Assembly: GCF_014930455.1 (NCBI RefSeq)
Contig: NZ_JAAIYO010000001.1
Span: 1,054,001-1,118,000 of the forward strand
Origin: Corallococcus soli
GTDB taxonomy: Bacteria; Myxococcota; Myxococcia; Myxococcales; Myxococcaceae
DNA: 64,000 nucleotides
Direction: 5' to 3'
The notes under the pieces were generated by a model. It saw only the letters and a program-made list of their open reading frames with translations, searched no databases and was not told where the DNA came from. This document shows positions 52,987 through 61,117 of the stretch, piece by piece. Position 1 is the first letter of the stretch, and each line of letters opens with the position of its first letter. Position numbers and translations under genes: made by a program.

Positions 52987-54915
52987 ATGATCATCGGGAC
53001 GGCGGGGCACATCGACCACGGCAAGACGTCCCTGGTGAAGGCGCTGACCGGCATCGACACCGACCGGCTCCCGGAGGAGAAGCGGCGGGGCATCACCCTG
53101 GAGCTGGGCTTCGCGCACCTGCCCCTGCCGGACGGGCAGGTGGCGGGCGTGGTGGACGTGCCCGGCCACGAGCGCTTCGTGAAGGCCATGGCCGCCGGCG
53201 CTGGCGGCGTGGACCTGGCGGTGCTGGTGGTGGCCGCCGACGAGGGCGTCATGCCCCAGACGCGCGAACACCTGGACATCTGCCGGCTGCTCGGCGTGAA
53301 GGCCGGCGTCGTCGCGCTCACCAAGGCGGACCTGCTGGAGGGGCTGGGGGACGACTGGCGCGCCCTGGTGGAGGCGGACCTCGCCGCGCTCACCGCGGGC
53401 ACCTTCCTGGAGTCCGCTTCCGTCGTGCCGGTGTCCTCCAGGACGGGCGCGGGCCTCGCGGAGCTGAAGGCGGCGCTCGGCCGCGCGGGGGGCTCGCTGC
53501 CGGCGCGTCCTTCGGAGGGCCCCGCGTTCCTGCCGGTGGACCGGGCCTTCAGCATCAAGGGCTTCGGCACGGTGGTGACGGGCACGCTCCTGTCCGGTGC
53601 TCTCACGGTGGACGACGCGGTGTCGCTGCTGCCCTCCAGTTCTGGAGCCCGGCCGGGGCCGCTGCGCGTGCGGGGCGTGCAGGTGCATGGCCGGCCGGTG
53701 ACGCGCGTGGAGGCCGGGCAGCGCGCGGCGGTGAACGTGACGGGCCTGGAGCCCGGGGACGTGCACCGGGGCGGGGTGCTCACGCGCGCGGGTGAGCTGC
53801 CGGAGACGTCCATGCTGGACGTGGAGCTGACGCTGCTGCCCGCGGCCGGCTCCCCGCTGCCGAAGCGCCGCAAGCTGCTCCTGCACCTGGGCACCGCGCA
53901 GGTGGAGGCCACGGTGGCGCTCCTGGACCTGGAGTCGCTGGCCCCCGGGGAGACGGCGCTCGCGCAGCTGCGGCTGGCGGCGCCGGTGGGCGCGCTCGTG
54001 GGGCAGCGCTTCATCCTGCGCGGCTCGCGCGCGCTGCCGGGCCGGGGCGCCACGGTGGCCGGAGGCCGCGTGCTGTCCATCACCCCGCCGCGCCGTCGCC
54101 GGGGAGCGTCCGCGGTGGTGCGGCCGCTGGTGGAGGCGGACGCGGCCGGGCAGGTGGCGTGGCTGCTGCGGCAGGCGGGCTACGCGGGGCTCACGCAGAC
54201 GGAGCTGTTCGGCCGCTCGGGGCTCTCACAGAAGGTGCTGGCGCGCACGCTGGAGCTGCTGGGGGCGAAGGGCCAGGTGCTGCTGGTGGACCGCGAGCGG
54301 CGGCTGTACGTCTCCCAGGAGGTGTTCGAGGGCCTGCGTCAGCGCTCGCTCGCGCTGCTCGCCGCGTTCCACGAGCGCGAGCCCATGCGCGAGGGCCTGT
54401 CGCGCGAGGAGCTCCGCCAGCGGCTGTCCGCGCAGTTGGACGCGCGCCTCTTCCAGCGCGTGGTGCAGGCGCTGGGGGACGCGGGGAAGGTGGACGCGGA
54501 GAAGGACCTGGTGCGCCTCCAGGGCCGGGGCCGCACGCTCACGCTGGGGGACGAGGCCGCGCGCGCGCGCCTGTCGGCGGAGCTGTCCGCGGCGGGCCTC
54601 GCGCCTCCCACCGCCACGGAGCTGGCCCAGAAGCTGGGGTTGCCACCGGCGAGGCTCCAGGAGTTGATGAAGGTGCTGGTGGCGCAGGGCACGGGGGTGC
54701 GCGTGAGCGAGGAGCTGTGCTTCGACGCGAACGCCCTCGCGGGGCTGCGCGAGCGGCTGGTGGCCCACCTGCGGGAGCAGAAGGAGATCACCACGCAGGG
54801 CTTCAAGGACCTGGTGGGACAGAGTCGCAAGTTCATCATCCCCTTGTCGGAGTACTTCGACCGGGAGAAGGTGACGTTGAGGGTGGGTGACAAACGGGTG
54901 TTGCGCCGCGGATGA
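52987..54915 (+). CDS. selB: Selenocysteine-specific elongation factor SelB
   Basis: 642 aa. The G domain has [20 protein letters not shown] (G1, residues 4-23), [20 protein letters not shown] (G2), [12 protein letters not shown] (G3, near 57) and LTKADLLEG (G4, near 111). Domains II-III follow ([20 protein letters not shown]). The C-terminal half has four winged-helix-like units that bind the SECIS hairpin, ending [20 protein letters not shown], typical of SelB. It brings Sec-tRNA to UGA codons. selA, selD and tRNA-Sec are not in the window. The stop overlaps the histidine kinase start (ATGA). Confidence 0.95.
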
Positions 54916-57446
54916 GTCCCAAGACCTACAGCGAGCAGGCGCTGCGCGCCCTGGTGGAACCCTTCGCCAACCCCGTGCTGGTGCTGGACGGGGAGGGGCG
55001 CGTGCGCGTCTGCAACGACGGGTACGCCGAACTGCTGGGCCTCCCCCGCGACCAGGTGGAGGGCCATTCCTTCCTCGACTTCGTGCAGGCGGAGGAGCGC
55101 AGCCGCCTGGCGGAGCGCTACCAGCGGCTGGCCACGGGCTCGCCGCTGGACGGGCGCACGCAGCTCTACCGGGTGACCAGCACCCAGGGCCGCATGACGG
55201 AGGTCTCCGTGCAGGCCACGCAGGTGCAACTGGACGGCGGGGGCTACGGGCTGCTGCTCTGCTGCCTCGTCCAGACGCAGCGGCCCCTGGAGCTGGCGGT
55301 GGCGGAGCGGCTGGTGGACACGTCCGCGGGGCTCGTGTCCGCGCGCTCGGAGGAGGCGGTGCGGCGCGTGGCGCTGGCGGGCCTGGAGGGCGCGGGGTTC
55401 CGGGCCCGGCTGCTGCGCTGGGAGGGCACGCGGCTGGTGGTGCGTGACGGGGTGTCCCCGCCCGCGGACGCGCACCTGGCGCTGGAGGCGCTGTCGGACG
55501 GGCGGCCGGTGTTCGGCGGAGCGGACCACGCGGAGCCCACGCACGCGTACCTGCCGGTGGGCGGGCCGCAGTCGGAGGTGCTGTGGGTGGCGGGGCCGTG
55601 GGTGGCGCCCCGGCATGGCTCGGTGCTGACGCTGTTCGCGAAGGTGGTGGGCGCGGCGCTCGCGGACGTGCACCTGCAGGCGGACGGCGCCCGCAGCCGC
55701 TGGGAGGTGGAGGCGGTGGCGGAGATGGCGCGCTTCGTCGCGCAGCCGGTGCCTCCGCCGCCGGAGCGGTTCCTCGCCCGGGTGGCGGAGCTGCTGAAGG
55801 CCCAGGCGGTGGCGCTGCACCTGGTGCCGGCGCCGGGCCAGCCTCCCCAGCTCTCCCATCAGGTGGGGCTGGAGGACGAGGGCCAGGCCCAAGGCCAGGC
55901 CGGCGTCGGCGTGGACGTGGAGCGCCTCACGGCCGTGCTGGTGACGTCGTCGCTCCGGCTGGACGGGGGCGTGGTGTCCTCGGAGGTCCAGGGCCGCATG
56001 CTGGAGACGCTGTCCCAGGGCCGCTTCGGCTCCGGAGCGGCGGCGCGGCTCACCCGGGGCGGCGAGGGCGTGGGCGCGGTGCAGGCGCTGCGCTCGAAGG
56101 AGAGGCCCTTCGACGAGCGCGACGCGCGGCTGCTGGCCACGCTGGCGGAGCTGCTGGTGACGTTGCTGGAGCAGCGCCGCCTCCGGGCGGAGTCCGCGCG
56201 CCAGCTCACGGAGACGCGCCTGCTGCTGGACCTGGCGCGCACCACGTCGGGCGTGCTGGAGACGGCGAGCATCCTGGACGTCGCGTCCGACTTCCTCGTG
56301 CACCTGCTGGACGTGTCCAACTGCTTCATCCTGCTCTACGACGAGCAGGCCAAGGTGCTCCGGGGCGCGGCGGCGTCGGTGGCGCACCGGGACCTGTTCC
56401 GCACGGTGGTGGTGCCGCTCGACAGCGACGACCTGGCCGCGCGAGTGGCCCGGGAGCGCAAGCCCATCGCCATCGAGGACCTCACGCGGGGGGGCGCGTC
56501 CACCGGCACCGGGCTCGTCGAGCGGCTGGGGGAGAAGGCCCTGCTGGGCCTGCCGCTCACGTCGCGCGAGGAGCTCATCGGCGTGGTGATGGTGGACGAC
56601 GTGCGCGGCCCCCGGCCCTTCGGCCCGGAGCTCATCGACCTGGCGGAGGCCACATGCGGACAGCTGGCCTTGTCCATCGCCAACGCGCGGCTGTACGAAT
56701 CGCTGTGGGCCAGCTACGCGGAGCTGGCCGCCACGCGCGCGGAGATGGTGAAGCGCGAACGACTGGCTGCCCTGGGCGAGCTGTCCGCCATCGTCGCGCA
56801 CGAGGTGCGAAACCCCCTGGGCGTCATCTTCAACGCGGTGGCGTCGCTGCGGCGGATCATGAAGCCGGAGGGGGACGCCGCCATGCTGCTGGACATCGTG
56901 GGGGAGGAGAGCGACCGCCTCAACCGGATGGTGGGCGCCCTGCTGGACTACACCCGCCCGCGCAACCCGGTGCTCCAGAACGAGGACCTGCCGCGCGTGC
57001 TCCAGGACTCGCTGGAGGCGGCGAAGGCGCAGGGGGCCACGGAGCGGCCGGTGCGCATCTCCTCGGAGGTGGAGGAGGGCATGCCGCCGGTGCCCATGGA
57101 CCGGCGTCTCATCCGCCAGGCCCTCCTCAACGTGGCCGTCAACGCCATCCAGTCCATGCCCCAGGGCGGCCAGGTGCAGGTGAAGGCCCGCCGCGAGGCG
57201 TACGGCGGCCGTGAACAGCTGCGCATCGACGTGATGGACCAGGGGCCGGGCATCCCGGCCGAGCTGCTCCACCGCGTCTTCGAACCCTTCTTCACCACCA
57301 AGGCCCAGGGCACCGGCATGGGCCTCGCCGTGGTGAAGCGCATCCTGGAGGATCACCGCGGCGAAATCGCCGTGGAGAGCGTGCCGGGACGCGGTACTAC
57401 GTTCATCTTCCGGCTGCCCCTCACGCAGCCCCTGTCCTTTCCATGA
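54912..57446 (+). CDS. pxrK: Sensor histidine kinase with PAS and GAF domains (PxrK candidate)
   Basis: 844 aa, no transmembrane segments, so probably cytoplasmic. A PAS domain lies at about 8-130 (FANPVLVLDGEGRVRVCNDG), then GAF-like regions at about 130-260, 270-430 and 440-610. A coiled-coil-like linker leads to HisKA with His in LSAIVAHEVRNPLGVIFNAV near 629, and HATPase boxes NVAVNAIQSMPQGG (N), DQGPGIPAE (G1), FEPFFTTKA (F) and GTGMGLAVVKRI (G2). It would phosphorylate the activator whose ATG overlaps its stop. It sits directly upstream of that activator and of the sRNA, as pxrK does in M. xanthus; the name rests on synteny. Confidence 0.85.
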   Translation: MSPKTYSEQALRALVEPFANPVLVLDGEGRVRVCNDGYAELLGLPRDQVEGHSFLDFVQAEERSRLAERYQRLATGSPLDGRTQLYRVTSTQGRMTEVSVQATQVQLDGGGYGLLLCCLVQTQRPLELAVAERLVDTSAGLVSARSEEAVRRVALAGLEGAGFRARLLRWEGTRLVVRDGVSPPADAHLALEALSDGRPVFGGADHAEPTHAYLPVGGPQSEVLWVAGPWVAPRHGSVLTLFAKVVGAALADVHLQADGARSRWEVEAVAEMARFVAQPVPPPPERFLARVAELLKAQAVALHLVPAPGQPPQLSHQVGLEDEGQAQGQAGVGVDVERLTAVLVTSSLRLDGGVVSSEVQGRMLETLSQGRFGSGAAARLTRGGEGVGAVQALRSKERPFDERDARLLATLAELLVTLLEQRRLRAESARQLTETRLLLDLARTTSGVLETASILDVASDFLVHLLDVSNCFILLYDEQAKVLRGAAASVAHRDLFRTVVVPLDSDDLAARVARERKPIAIEDLTRGGASTGTGLVERLGEKALLGLPLTSREELIGVVMVDDVRGPRPFGPELIDLAEATCGQLALSIANARLYESLWASYAELAATRAEMVKRERLAALGELSAIVAHEVRNPLGVIFNAVASLRRIMKPEGDAAMLLDIVGEESDRLNRMVGALLDYTRPRNPVLQNEDLPRVLQDSLEAAKAQGATERPVRISSEVEEGMPPVPMDRRLIRQALLNVAVNAIQSMPQGGQVQVKARREAYGGREQLRIDVMDQGPGIPAELLHRVFEPFFTTKAQGTGMGLAVVKRILEDHRGEIAVESVPGRGTTFIFRLPLTQPLSFP

Positions 57447-58885
57447 CCGACGCGACCACGCCGATTCCCCGAGGACGCATCCTCGTGGTGGATGACCAGT
57501 GCAACATGCGCGCCACCACCGCGCTGCTCCTGCGCGGCGAGGGCTACACCGTCTCCGAGGCCGCCACCGGCGAGGAGGCCCTGGGCGTGCTCGCGCAGGG
57601 GCAGGTGGACCTGCTGCTCACGGACCTGAAGATGGAGCCCATGGACGGGCTCACGCTGCTCAAGCGCGGACTGGAGGTGTCCCCGCGCCTGCAGGCCATC
57701 ATGATGACGGCCTTCGGCTCCATCGAGAGCGCGGTGGAGGCCATGCGCCTGGGGGCGTACGACTACGTCACCAAGCCCTTCAAGGAAGGTGAGCTGCGCT
57801 ACCGCGTGGAGCGCGCGCTGGAGCGGGCCAAGCTCCAGTCGGCGGTGGACAACTTCGCCACCGAATTCAACCAGCGCCACGGCCTGTCCGCGCTGGTGGG
57901 CCGCAGCCAGGCGATGCGGGAGCTCACCACGCGCCTGCTGCGCGTCGCGCAGAGCGACGCCACCGTCCTCATCCAGGGCGAGAGCGGCACGGGCAAGGAG
58001 CTGGTGGCGCGGGCCCTCCACACGCACAGCCGGCGCAGCGGCCAGCCCTTCGTGCCCGTCAACTGCGCGGCCATCAGCGAGACGCTCCTGGAGAGCGAGC
58101 TGTTCGGCCACGCCAAGGGCGCCTTCACCGGCGCGGTGAAGACGCGCCGGGGCCTCTTCGAGGAGGCATCCGGCGGCACGCTCTTCATCGACGAGGTGAC
58201 GGAGACCAGCCCCACCTTCCAGTCCAAGCTGCTGCGCACGCTGCAGGACGGCGAGGTGCGCCGCGTGGGCGAGTCCACCGCGCTGCGCGTGGACGTGCGC
58301 ATCGCGGCGGCCACCAACCGCGACATCGAGCTGGAGGTGCGCGAGAAGCGCTTCCGCCAGGACCTCTACTACCGCCTCAACGTGGTGATGCTGCGCGTGC
58401 CCCCGCTGCGCGAGCGTCTGGAGGACGTGCCCGCCCTGGCGGAGCACTTCCTGCAACGCTCCAACAACCGCAGCCCCCGGCCCCGGCGCCTGTCCGCCTC
58501 CGCCGTGGAGCACCTGATGACGTACAACTTCCCCGGCAACGTGCGCGAGCTGGAGAACCTGGTGGAGCAGGCCGCCGCGCTCGCGGAGGCGGACGAGCTG
58601 CTGCCCGAGGACTTCCCGCTGCGCCCCCAGGCCCGCGTGCTGCCGGCCGCCACCTCCACGGGCCTGCCCCCCACGGACGCCCGCGCCAGCGGCCCGGAGG
58701 CCACCGGCCCCACGCTGGCGGAGGTGGTGGAGGAGGCCGAGCGCCGCGCCATCGTCCAGGCCCTGGACCGCCACGGTGTGGACCTGGCCCGCGTGGCCGA
58801 CGAGCTGGGCGTCTCCTCCACCACGCTGTGGCGGAAGATGAAGCGCCTCAACCTCCGGCCTCCCACCGGCGCCCCCCGCGAGTAG
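57443..58885 (+). CDS. pxrR: NtrC-family sigma-54 activator, response regulator (PxrR candidate)
   Basis: 480 aa. The receiver domain (13-125) has RILVVDDQCNMRATTALLLR, the phospho-Asp in DLLLTDLKMEP near 60, and Lys in TKPFKEGE near 109. The AAA+ domain has Walker A GESGTGKELVAR near 178, GAFTGAVKTRRG near 226 (sigma-54 contact), Walker B GGTLFIDEVTE near 244, and the arginine-finger region. A Fis-type HTH ends the protein (LARVADELGVSSTTLWRKMK, about 445-465). It binds enhancers and remodels the RpoN holoenzyme. The sRNA 260 bp downstream has a sigma-54 promoter and enhancer-like dyads, a natural target. Naming follows the M. xanthus locus order. Confidence 0.88.
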   Translation: MTDATTPIPRGRILVVDDQCNMRATTALLLRGEGYTVSEAATGEEALGVLAQGQVDLLLTDLKMEPMDGLTLLKRGLEVSPRLQAIMMTAFGSIESAVEAMRLGAYDYVTKPFKEGELRYRVERALERAKLQSAVDNFATEFNQRHGLSALVGRSQAMRELTTRLLRVAQSDATVLIQGESGTGKELVARALHTHSRRSGQPFVPVNCAAISETLLESELFGHAKGAFTGAVKTRRGLFEEASGGTLFIDEVTETSPTFQSKLLRTLQDGEVRRVGESTALRVDVRIAAATNRDIELEVREKRFRQDLYYRLNVVMLRVPPLRERLEDVPALAEHFLQRSNNRSPRPRRLSASAVEHLMTYNFPGNVRELENLVEQAAALAEADELLPEDFPLRPQARVLPAATSTGLPPTDARASGPEATGPTLAEVVEEAERRAIVQALDRHGVDLARVADELGVSSTTLWRKMKRLNLRPPTGAPRE

Positions 58886-59001: not shown

Positions 59002-59015
59002 GGGGCTTTTCAAAT

Positions 59016-59032
59016 CTGAAACCTGATTTCAG
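59016..59032 (+). promoter_or_regulatory. 17-bp palindrome CTGAAA-N5-TTTCAG (candidate activator-binding enhancer)
   Basis: Perfect 6-bp inverted arms with a 5-bp spacer, 17 bp in all, the same geometry as NtrC-type sites. It is centred about 121 bases upstream of the predicted sRNA start, which is typical enhancer distance. It lies between the sigma-54 activator gene and its likely target promoter. Confidence 0.6.
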
Positions 59033-59089
59033 CCCTGCAATGCCGGAAGGGTGGGGGCGCAATGTCGCCCTGTCGTCCAAGTGCCTGAG

Positions 59090-59101
59090 AACTCTAGAGT
59101 T
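59090..59101 (+). promoter_or_regulatory. 12-bp palindrome AACTCTAGAGTT
   Basis: A perfect 12-bp palindrome centred about 50 bases upstream of the predicted sRNA start, 17 bases before the -24 element. It could bind a second regulator or a sharp-bend protein. Confidence 0.45.
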
Positions 59102-59118
59102 TCGCCCCGCTAAGGGGC

Positions 59119-59134
59119 TGGCACGGCACCTGCT
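59119..59134 (+). promoter_or_regulatory. Sigma-54 (-24/-12) promoter of the small RNA
   Basis: TGGCACGGCACCTGCT matches the consensus TGGCACG-N4-TTGCW with one mismatch (C for T before TGC). GG and GC have the exact required 10-base spacing. Transcription is expected near 59145. RpoN is encoded in the same window at 33993, and an activator with its kinase lies directly upstream. Confidence 0.8.
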
Positions 59135-59144
59135 ATAGCCCTGG

Positions 59145-59265
59145 TCCGGGACGCATCGAAGCGAGGCTGAAAGTGGTTCCCCCCCACCCTTTCAGCACTT
59201 CCGGTGCGTCACCTTGAGAAGACCCGCGGCCCGACACCCTCACGGGTGCCGGGCCGCCTTCTTTT
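59145..59265 (+). ncRNA. pxr: Predicted sigma-54-dependent small RNA (Pxr-like)
   Basis: About 121 nt between the predicted start and the T-run. An outer stem pairs 59150-59158 with 59202-59210 (gacgcatcg with cggtgcgtc, one G-U). It encloses a hairpin with arms gctgaaag and ctttcagc (59166-59173, 59189-59196). The 3' end is the terminator stem at 59226-59257. No open reading frame with coding character covers it. The order kinase, NtrC-type activator, sigma-54-driven RNA matches the M. xanthus pxrK-pxrR-pxr locus, whose RNA represses fruiting-body development during growth. Identity is inferred from synteny and signals; I have not aligned the RNA. Confidence 0.75.
59226..59265 (+). terminator. 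Intrinsic terminator of the small RNA
   Basis: Arms 59226-59239 and 59244-59257 pair over 14 bp with one A-C mismatch and a tcac loop, followed by cttctttt. This is the clearest rho-independent terminator in the window. Confidence 0.85.
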
Positions 59266-59557: not shown

Positions 59558-61117
59558 CTACTGCCCGAACAGGGTGCCCGCCTGGGCGAGCCAGTCGGTG
59601 ACGTGGCCGGGAAGGATGCCCAGCAACACCACCGCCACGGTGGAGATGACCAGCGCGGCCTCCGTGCCCCAATTGCGCTCCAGCGGCTGCGCGCCCTCCG
59701 GGACGGGGTGCATGAACATGTAGACGACGACGCGCAGGTAGTAATACGCGCCCGCCGCACTGGAGAGCACCGCGACGATGGTGAGGCCCACGAGGCCCAC
59801 GTCGATGGCGGCCTGGAAGATGAGCAGCTTGCTCATGAAGCCCACCGTCGGGGGGATGCCGCCCAGCGACAGCATGAAGGCCGCCATGGCGAACGCCCAG
59901 CCCGGCCGGCGCTGCGCGAGGCCCGCGAAGCGCTCCAGGTCCCAGGCAGTGCCCTTCTCCTCGTCCTCGCGGCGCTCCAGCGCGGACACCATGGCGAACG
60001 CGCCCGCCGCGCTGAAGGTGTACGCCAGCAGGTAGTACAGGATGCCGCGCAGCGCGTCCGAGCGGGCCACGTCCAGCGGCGTCCCACCCGTCAGCGACGA
60101 CGCGGACAGCACGCGGAAGCTCTCGCCCGGCGCCGCGACGAACAGCGCTGCCACGCCCAACAGCAGGTAGCCCGCGTGCGCGATGGAGGAGTACGCCAGC
60201 ATGCGCTTCACGTTGCGCTGCGGGATGGCCATCAGGTTGCCGGCCACCATGGTGAGCAGCGCCAGCGTGGCGAACAGCGTCAGCGGCAGCGCGGGGTCCA
60301 TGCCCTTGCACACCGTGAGGAACACGCGCACCAGCGAGGCGAACGCCGCGGCCTTCACGCCCGCGCTCATCAGCGCCGTCACCGGCGTGGGGGCCCCTTC
60401 GTACACGTCCGGCGTCCACATGTGGAACGGCACCGCCGCCACCTTGAACGCGAAGCCCGCCGCGATGAGCACCGCGCCCACGTACACCAGGGCCGGGTTG
60501 CCGTTGAGCGCCTGCTGCAGCGGAACGACCATGTCGTTCAGCTTCGTCGTGCCCGTGGCCCCGTACAGCAGCGCCGCGCCGTACAGCAGGATGGCGGACG
60601 AGAAGGCGCCCAGGATGAAGTACTTGAAGCCCGCCTCGCTGGGCCGCGTGCCCCGGCGCAGATACGCCGTCAGCGCGTACGTCGCGATGGAGAGCACCTC
60701 GATGTTGACGAAGATGGTGATGAACTCCGTCGACATGGCCAGCAGGCTCATGCCCGCGGAGGCGAAGAGCATCAGCGCGTAGAACTCACCGCGCTCCGCG
60801 CCTCGCTTGCGCAGGAAGCCTACCGCGCTCAGCGCCGCCAGCCCCAGGCCCACGCTCACCACCAGGGTGAGGAAGCTGGAGAAGGGATCCAGGACGCCGA
60901 AGCCCAGGAACACCTCCTGGGGCGGCTCGAACATCAGGCCCACGGCCACGGCGCCGCTGGCCGCCGCCGCCGCGACGGTGAGCACCGCCTGGTAGCCGCG
61001 GGACGCGGTGGCGGAGAGGAACACCTCCGACAGCAGCAGGATGGAGGCCGCCACCACCATGATGATGGCGGGCAGCAGGGGGAGGAAATCCGCCAGGGTG
61101 AGGTTTGGCAGGTTCAT
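59558..61117 (-). CDS. nuoN: NADH-quinone oxidoreductase subunit N
   Basis: 519 aa, about 14 transmembrane helices, a proton-pumping antiporter-like subunit of complex I. The N-terminus NLPNLTLADFLPLLPAIIMV and helices with GFAFKVAAVPFHMWTPDVYE (Lys and His of the proton path) and the hallmark VKRMLAYSSIAHAGYLLLGV are present. It is the last gene of the nuo operon here, 15 bp after nuoM. Its 3' side meets the sRNA terminator region and a block of inverted repeats. Confidence 0.96.
   Translation of the reverse strand: MNLPNLTLADFLPLLPAIIMVVAASILLLSEVFLSATASRGYQAVLTVAAAAASGAVAVGLMFEPPQEVFLGFGVLDPFSSFLTLVVSVGLGLAALSAVGFLRKRGAERGEFYALMLFASAGMSLLAMSTEFITIFVNIEVLSIATYALTAYLRRGTRPSEAGFKYFILGAFSSAILLYGAALLYGATGTTKLNDMVVPLQQALNGNPALVYVGAVLIAAGFAFKVAAVPFHMWTPDVYEGAPTPVTALMSAGVKAAAFASLVRVFLTVCKGMDPALPLTLFATLALLTMVAGNLMAIPQRNVKRMLAYSSIAHAGYLLLGVAALFVAAPGESFRVLSASSLTGGTPLDVARSDALRGILYYLLAYTFSAAGAFAMVSALERREDEEKGTAWDLERFAGLAQRRPGWAFAMAAFMLSLGGIPPTVGFMSKLLIFQAAIDVGLVGLTIVAVLSSAAGAYYYLRVVVYMFMHPVPEGAQPLERNWGTEAALVISTVAVVLLGILPGHVTDWLAQAGTLFGQ

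Follow-up and report, generated by a model that had tools for sequence, protein, structure and literature searches.

The locus at 59119–59265 of the 64,000-nucleotide stretch of Corallococcus DNA analysed here (the window) is, on the evidence of its sequence, the Corallococcus pxr gene, and its product very probably belongs, as one branch, to a family of C-loop small RNAs spread across the Myxococcota and driven by PxrR and sigma-54, of which an apparently undescribed single-hairpin form exists in Anaeromyxobacter-type, Vulgatibacter-type and other lineages. With the same probability the module would predate the control of fruiting bodies, its ancestral target being one common to these bacteria. 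The features on which the argument draws are the following.

54912–57446, + strand: pxrK, a PAS-GAF histidine kinase (Pfam PAS, GAF, HisKA and HATPase_c).
57443–58885, + strand: pxrR (nla19/spdR), an NtrC-type sigma-54 activator (Pfam Response_reg, Sigma54_activat and HTH_8).
59008–59021, unstranded: first palindrome TTTCAAATCTGAAA, a candidate enhancer site for PxrR with one mismatch to TTTCAGNNCTGAAA.
59027–59040, unstranded: second palindrome TTTCAGCCCTGCAA, 19 bp away from the first and likewise a candidate enhancer site for PxrR.
59077–59102, unstranded: block CCAAGTGCCTGAGAACTCTAGAGTTT, located between the enhancer and the promoter and largely conserved in 18 aligned pxr upstream regions.
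59119–59134, + strand: sigma-54 −24/−12 promoter TGGCACGGCACCTGCT (TGGCAC-N5-CTGCT), a pattern match at a near-fixed distance in relatives.
59145–59265, + strand: pxr transcript with a predicted 5′ end (RF01812 at 59159–59265; fold z −7.0).
59148–59158, + strand: 5′ arm of the outer stem, pairing with 59202–59213 (fold and covariation), most of it lying before the Rfam model begins.
59163–59200, + strand: SL1 hairpin with loop UCCCCCCC and a C-run at 59179–59185 (fold).
59202–59213, + strand: 3′ arm of the outer stem, overlapping the published SL2 (GGUG-CGU-CACC).
59216–59265, + strand: SL3, the intrinsic terminator and U-run (fold and compensatory pairs).
59558–61117, − strand: nuoN, the convergent neighbour of pxr.

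The region at 59159–59265 on the + strand matches the Rfam family RF01812 (Pxr) over its full length (model positions 1–109; score 113.2 bits, threshold 80), a search of the 9.4-Mb Corallococcus genome with this model shows pxr to be present in single copy, and the gene order pxrK-pxrR-pxr-nuoN is that published for Myxococcus xanthus, where pxr sits between the sigma-54 regulator gene nla19/pxrR and an NADH dehydrogenase gene (PMC5568312) and pxrK lies upstream of pxrR (PMC5684412). Taken together, these observations identify the window locus as Pxr. The original prediction of a ‘pxr-like’ RNA with pxrR and pxrK just upstream, as in M. xanthus, can thus be worded more firmly: comparison with Rfam gave a match above the gathering score, and a genome-wide check for a true pxr elsewhere returned the window locus as the sole copy. 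Plasmid copies of pxr were searched for and none was found. A Corallococcus pxr already figures in a published alignment (PMC5684412), and the window copy is an ordinary orthologue, an additional instance of a known sRNA. It resembles Pxr of M. xanthus in sequence, SL1 loop, SL3 terminator, sigma-54 promoter and gene order, and differs in having no pxrA between pxr and nuoN and in an outer stem whose 5′ arm is mostly upstream of the Rfam model and which can form if the transcript begins at the sigma-54 start.

Pxr occurs in 93 of the 96 genomes and 25 of the 26 genera of the window's family (f1). The PAS/GAF kinase and NtrC-type activator originally read upstream of the RNA are both present, with PAS, GAF, HisKA and HATPase domains at 54912–57446 and receiver, sigma-54 AAA and Fis-type HTH domains at 57443–58885. 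Neighbours at the pxrK position in Myxococcus and other Corallococcus show 71–82% identity, and the window PxrR is 97% identical to PxrR of Corallococcus sicarius, the nearest named. The kinase gene pxrK is not a fixed component of the locus, since several basal genera have pxrR-pxr without an adjacent pxrK, with selB immediately upstream in some (L052, L042–L044, L055, L057, L068), and the best PxrK-like proteins elsewhere in these genomes are only ~37–48% identical. Genomes bearing pxr without a PxrR orthologue belong to g21 and g23. At L065 (G081) and L067 (G085), reduced genomes of 2.1–2.7 Mb included, Pxr has a C-rich SL1 loop and no PxrR orthologue accompanies it; in G081 the sigma-54 element is absent from its usual place. 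An RNA beside PxrR was not found in several PxrR-bearing genomes.

The −24/−12 promoter is found at 59119–59134 with the exact GG-N10-GC spacing first proposed (GG at 59120–59121, GC at 59132–59133). The pattern TGGCAY-N6-TGCT has one match in the 64 kb where 0.23 would be expected, a weak signal alone given that 20 of 100 shuffled sequences also had one; the position of the element is conserved in relatives, a sigma-54 element preceding nearly every pxr copy in the window's family at a near-fixed position. Sigma-70 promoters were looked for near pxr and none was found. Palindromes of the form TTTCAG-N2-CTGAAA recur ahead of almost all pxr copies, and in the aligned upstream regions of the family their position is conserved; 143 are present at ≤2 mismatches in 69 pxr upstream regions against 0.23 expected by shuffling, the 69 regions not all being independent as many are copies inside tandem arrays. 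At ≤1 mismatch the whole Corallococcus genome holds seven such sites, in tandem at pxr only. The search for other members of a PxrR regulon gave non-tandem sites with no sigma-54 match in their flanks, a weak result, hence, as the strict pattern also misses the pxr promoter. Because the palindromes are conserved upstream of pxr and Pxr synthesis in M. xanthus requires pxrR (PMC10217877), the tandem pair is likely to be the PxrR enhancer, which PxrR would bind directly. The block at 59077–59102, which in this species ends in the perfect palindrome AACTCTAGAGTT, is possibly a site for an IHF-type bending protein or for a second regulator. Also upstream of the promoter, at 59049–59058, GGGTGGGGG is complementary to CCCCCACCC of SL1, and a pairing of this part of SL1 with the pxrR 3′ UTR at that sequence is possible.

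The predicted transcript of 121 nt runs from 59145 to the U-run at 59265, with its first base 12 positions past the C in the −12 element, and the Rfam match begins at 59159, ~14 nt inside the predicted start. Its fold, at −66.8 kcal/mol (z −7.0), consists of an outer stem of 11 bp, the C-loop hairpin enclosed by it and a terminator hairpin followed by a U-run, in agreement with the ~121-nt RNA of outer stem, inner hairpin and intrinsic terminator that had been described from the letters, its 5′ end being a prediction. The absence of a coding frame, likewise part of that description, is upheld: no convincing frame was found, and the overlapping ORFs of 20–70 aa on both strands are judged to be due to chance. 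The 8-bp core of SL3, GCGGCCCG/CGGGCCGC, is present and paired, and is equated with the published core via its conservation in aligned homologues. The outer stem is backed by covariation among the sequences of 25 genera. With one pxr taken per genus and trimmed arms flanking SL1, the mean pairing energy of own partners was −17.1 kcal/mol, compared with −13.9 ± 0.6 (SD) when 3′ arms were exchanged between genera, and 0 of 20000 permutations reached the own-partner value. Folding the RNA from ten bases further downstream replaces the outer stem with SL2, and since the 3′ arm of the outer stem overlaps SL2 the two are, in the predicted folds, alternatives. The loop of SL1 is the most conserved part of Pxr, GGUU(C/U)CCCCCCAC being invariant in 50 aligned homologues, and Myxococcus-type copies have exactly the loop seen in the window.

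As this structure follows closely after pxrR on the same strand and has a terminator at its end, it could be taken for no more than the pxrK-pxrR terminator and 3′ UTR, in which a promoter arose by chance. We give this reading almost no credence, given the Rfam match and the behaviour of the cassette in relatives. In two genomes, G009 (L041) and G013 (L045, which has two pxr copies), the pxr cassette is flipped with respect to its neighbours pxrR and nuoN; it has kept a sigma-54 promoter of its own, in G009 together with the palindromes, so that the cassette is an autonomous unit. Where four to five pxr copies stand in tandem (L036–L040, L047–L049), each has its own promoter and most have palindromes. 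Beyond the window's family, RNAs of the type described below are unlinked from pxrR in f2, f5, f7 and f8 and still possess promoter and palindromes. The retention of the promoter in inverted and unlinked cassettes refutes the terminator or 3′ UTR reading for the family and leaves pxr as a gene in its own right. The tandem pxr paralogues of Cystobacter (PMC5568312) share locus, promoter and SL1 with the window, the difference being one of number, with up to five tandem copies in relatives and one in the window.

Outside the window's family the Rfam Pxr model gave no match in other families of the order, and in L186, L187, L154 and L163 none even at E up to 5, the single-stem RNAs not attaining its gathering score. 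Anaeromyxobacter-type genomes nevertheless carry PxrR orthologues of 56–60% identity, and their PxrR-nuoN interval contains a hairpin of ~70 nt together with the palindromes and a sigma-54 promoter; the inner part of this hairpin, UUGAAGU-A-GGUCCCCCCCCGCC-ACUUCA, matches SL1 of Pxr. A covariance model, R1, built from nine single-stem RNAs with zero f1 sequences and with promoter and palindromes excluded, matched 80 of the 195 Myxococcota genomes searched. It re-finds known f1 pxr loci (for example in G047, E 2.5e-8), has no match at E ≤ 0.01 in the window genus (g1), and outside f1 extends to f2, f3, f5, f6, f8 and f27. Palindromes at ≤3 mismatches lie upstream of 27 of 29 C-run loci against 0.9 expected, these loci having passed a loose filter that demanded a promoter-like match and one of them being a spurious second site in L231; promoters stand beside nearly all R1 matches where 2.1 would be expected by shuffling, a count that is partly built into the filter. 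Compensatory change is seen at 20 of 25 pairs on 28 matches and in 0 of 500 shuffles, in an alignment fitted to the model, which favours structure. The distance from promoter to C-run is 59 in the window, 55–59 in most f1 copies and 53–60 in the short form. In the AT-rich genome G188 (L240) the promoter persists together with a C9 loop and a pair of TTTCATATATGAAA palindromes, and further variants occur in f9 (L245) and f7 (L262). All RNA-bearing genomes tested had PxrR orthologues of 56–66%, while neither RNA nor PxrR was found in G142 and G132. Candidates raised by the promoter pattern in G000, G062, G123 and G125 proved not to be C-loop RNAs; only that in G137 was one. Downstream of a 52% PxrR relative at L163, a palindrome-like site and a sigma-54 promoter accompany a C7 loop carried by an unrelated stem, possibly a still more distant relative.

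The single-stem RNAs of Anaeromyxobacter-type and other Myxococcota families share with Pxr the PxrR regulator, the tandem palindromes, the sigma-54 promoter and a C-loop hairpin within an outer stem, and differ in their length of ~70 nt, in having no separate SL3, the outer stem being itself the terminator, and in falling outside Rfam. The latter differences could be read as the mark of RNAs unrelated to Pxr whose C-loop converged under the same regulator, the short RNA being ended by its outer stem rather than by SL3 and remaining unseen by the Rfam model. Convergence is nonetheless improbable. The PxrR-nuoN location, the promoter-to-loop distance and the SL1 core UUGAAG..GG..CC..ACUUCA are the same in both, Pxr too has an outer stem, the models match reciprocally, and f7 displays an intermediate loop, GGUUCCCCCCCGCC. 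In locus, regulator, enhancer, promoter spacing and SL1 core the single-stem RNAs thus agree with Pxr as common descent would have it. No prior description of the single-stem form, its enhancer or its range was found in the openly readable literature, and the form is apparently undescribed.

We hold with high confidence to a model that joins the Corallococcus pxr gene, its control by PxrK and PxrR, a C-loop effector and an older Myxococcota family, with start site, processing and PxrR binding as its predicted elements. PxrK would phosphorylate PxrR, which would bind the tandem palindromes at 59008–59040 and activate sigma-54 polymerase at 59119–59134; the dependence on PxrR and PxrK is taken from the M. 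xanthus papers, as are Pxr-L/Pxr-S processing, repression of development and the need for the SL1 loop, while identity, promoter, enhancer motif, structure, synteny and family extent come from the present analysis. The resulting ~121-nt transcript would display the invariant C-rich SL1 loop, held by the outer stem, and would stop at the SL3 terminator, with processing and decay setting the level of active Pxr. While nutrients last, Pxr would hold back fruiting-body development, most likely through pairing of the C-loop with a G-rich target RNA. This copy would be a branch of the older family, the likely ancestral form being a single long hairpin with the same C-loop, PxrR enhancer and sigma-54 promoter whose own outer stem terminates the RNA in Anaeromyxobacter-type lineages. 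We infer the direct binding of PxrR to the palindromes, the pairing mechanism of the C-loop and function in Corallococcus.

A point mutation in the SL1 loop kills Pxr function in M. xanthus with the RNA still present (PMC5684412); as this loop is also the most conserved part of the molecule, it is likely to be the effector, and pairing with G-rich RNA is the most likely mode of action. The loop complement GTGGGGGGGAA has two other sites in the Corallococcus genome and, pxr itself aside, no orthologous match in three relatives (four genomes searched), and the lack of a conserved exact complement implies that pairing is short or imperfect, or that the partner is a protein. In Helicobacter pylori RepG and the staphylococcal UCCC-motif sRNAs, C-loop sRNAs that bind G-rich sites, the C-rich loop is likely to serve as seed; their likeness to Pxr is this loop, and their regulators and promoters differ. 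That the C-loop instead titrates a protein, either an RNA-binding regulator or an RNase, is a secondary possibility, to which we would give a minor share of belief: conservation of the loop from GC-rich to AT-rich genomes exceeds what pairing with a single target needs, no conserved long complement was found, and hfq is absent in M. xanthus (PMC5684412), but a C-run displayed on a hairpin equally fits short seed pairing to G-rich initiation regions and no protein partner is known. Pairing with RNA remains our preferred mechanism.

Pxr has been termed a developmental switch for this locus, of which the developmental part is retained by homology and ‘switch’ is loose; in M. xanthus, Pxr acts as a gatekeeper, and its processed form is lost upon starvation (PMC10217877). 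Transcription of Pxr and repression of development in Corallococcus would follow by homology. Its direct targets are unconfirmed, and pxrA, proposed as a target, has been reported from Myxococcus species only (PMC11928866). We find pxrA (MXAN_1079) adjoining pxr in Myxococcus and in members of g3, g7, g8 and g20, including Archangium. A GNAT acetyltransferase of the pxrA type stands beside pxr at L062, L063, L051, L036, L037 and L064, in genera beyond Myxococcus. As pxrA is absent from all 16 Corallococcus (g1) genomes, with none between pxr and nuoN in the window, and is absent also from basal genera, it is not the general target of Pxr. The absence of this best M. xanthus candidate from 16 of 16 Corallococcus genomes could also mean that the Corallococcus copy, although Pxr by descent, no longer gates development and regulates, for example, growth-phase metabolism, the more so as many metabolic genes are affected by Pxr in M. 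xanthus (PMC11928866) and as related RNAs occur in Anaeromyxobacter-type genomes, for which sporulation is unobserved and key fruiting genes are missing (PMC2330069). We think this unlikely, though worth serious attention, given that alleles from Stigmatella and other Myxococcus block development of M. xanthus (PMC5568312) and that Myxococcus-type copies share the exact SL1 loop of the window; a role in gating development is preferred for Corallococcus.

The wider family matters because Pxr had been described as recent in origin within the Cystobacterineae (PMC5568312). With a Pxr-type RNA in bacteria without known fruiting bodies, the original task of Pxr was probably not the control of fruiting, and the PxrR-Pxr module appears to be older than thought and not tied to that process. 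The ~70-nt form in such organisms shows which parts are indispensable, namely the enhancer, the sigma-54 promoter and a C-loop within an outer stem; it counts against pxrA as a general target and offers the natural comparison through which the ancestral target may be approached.
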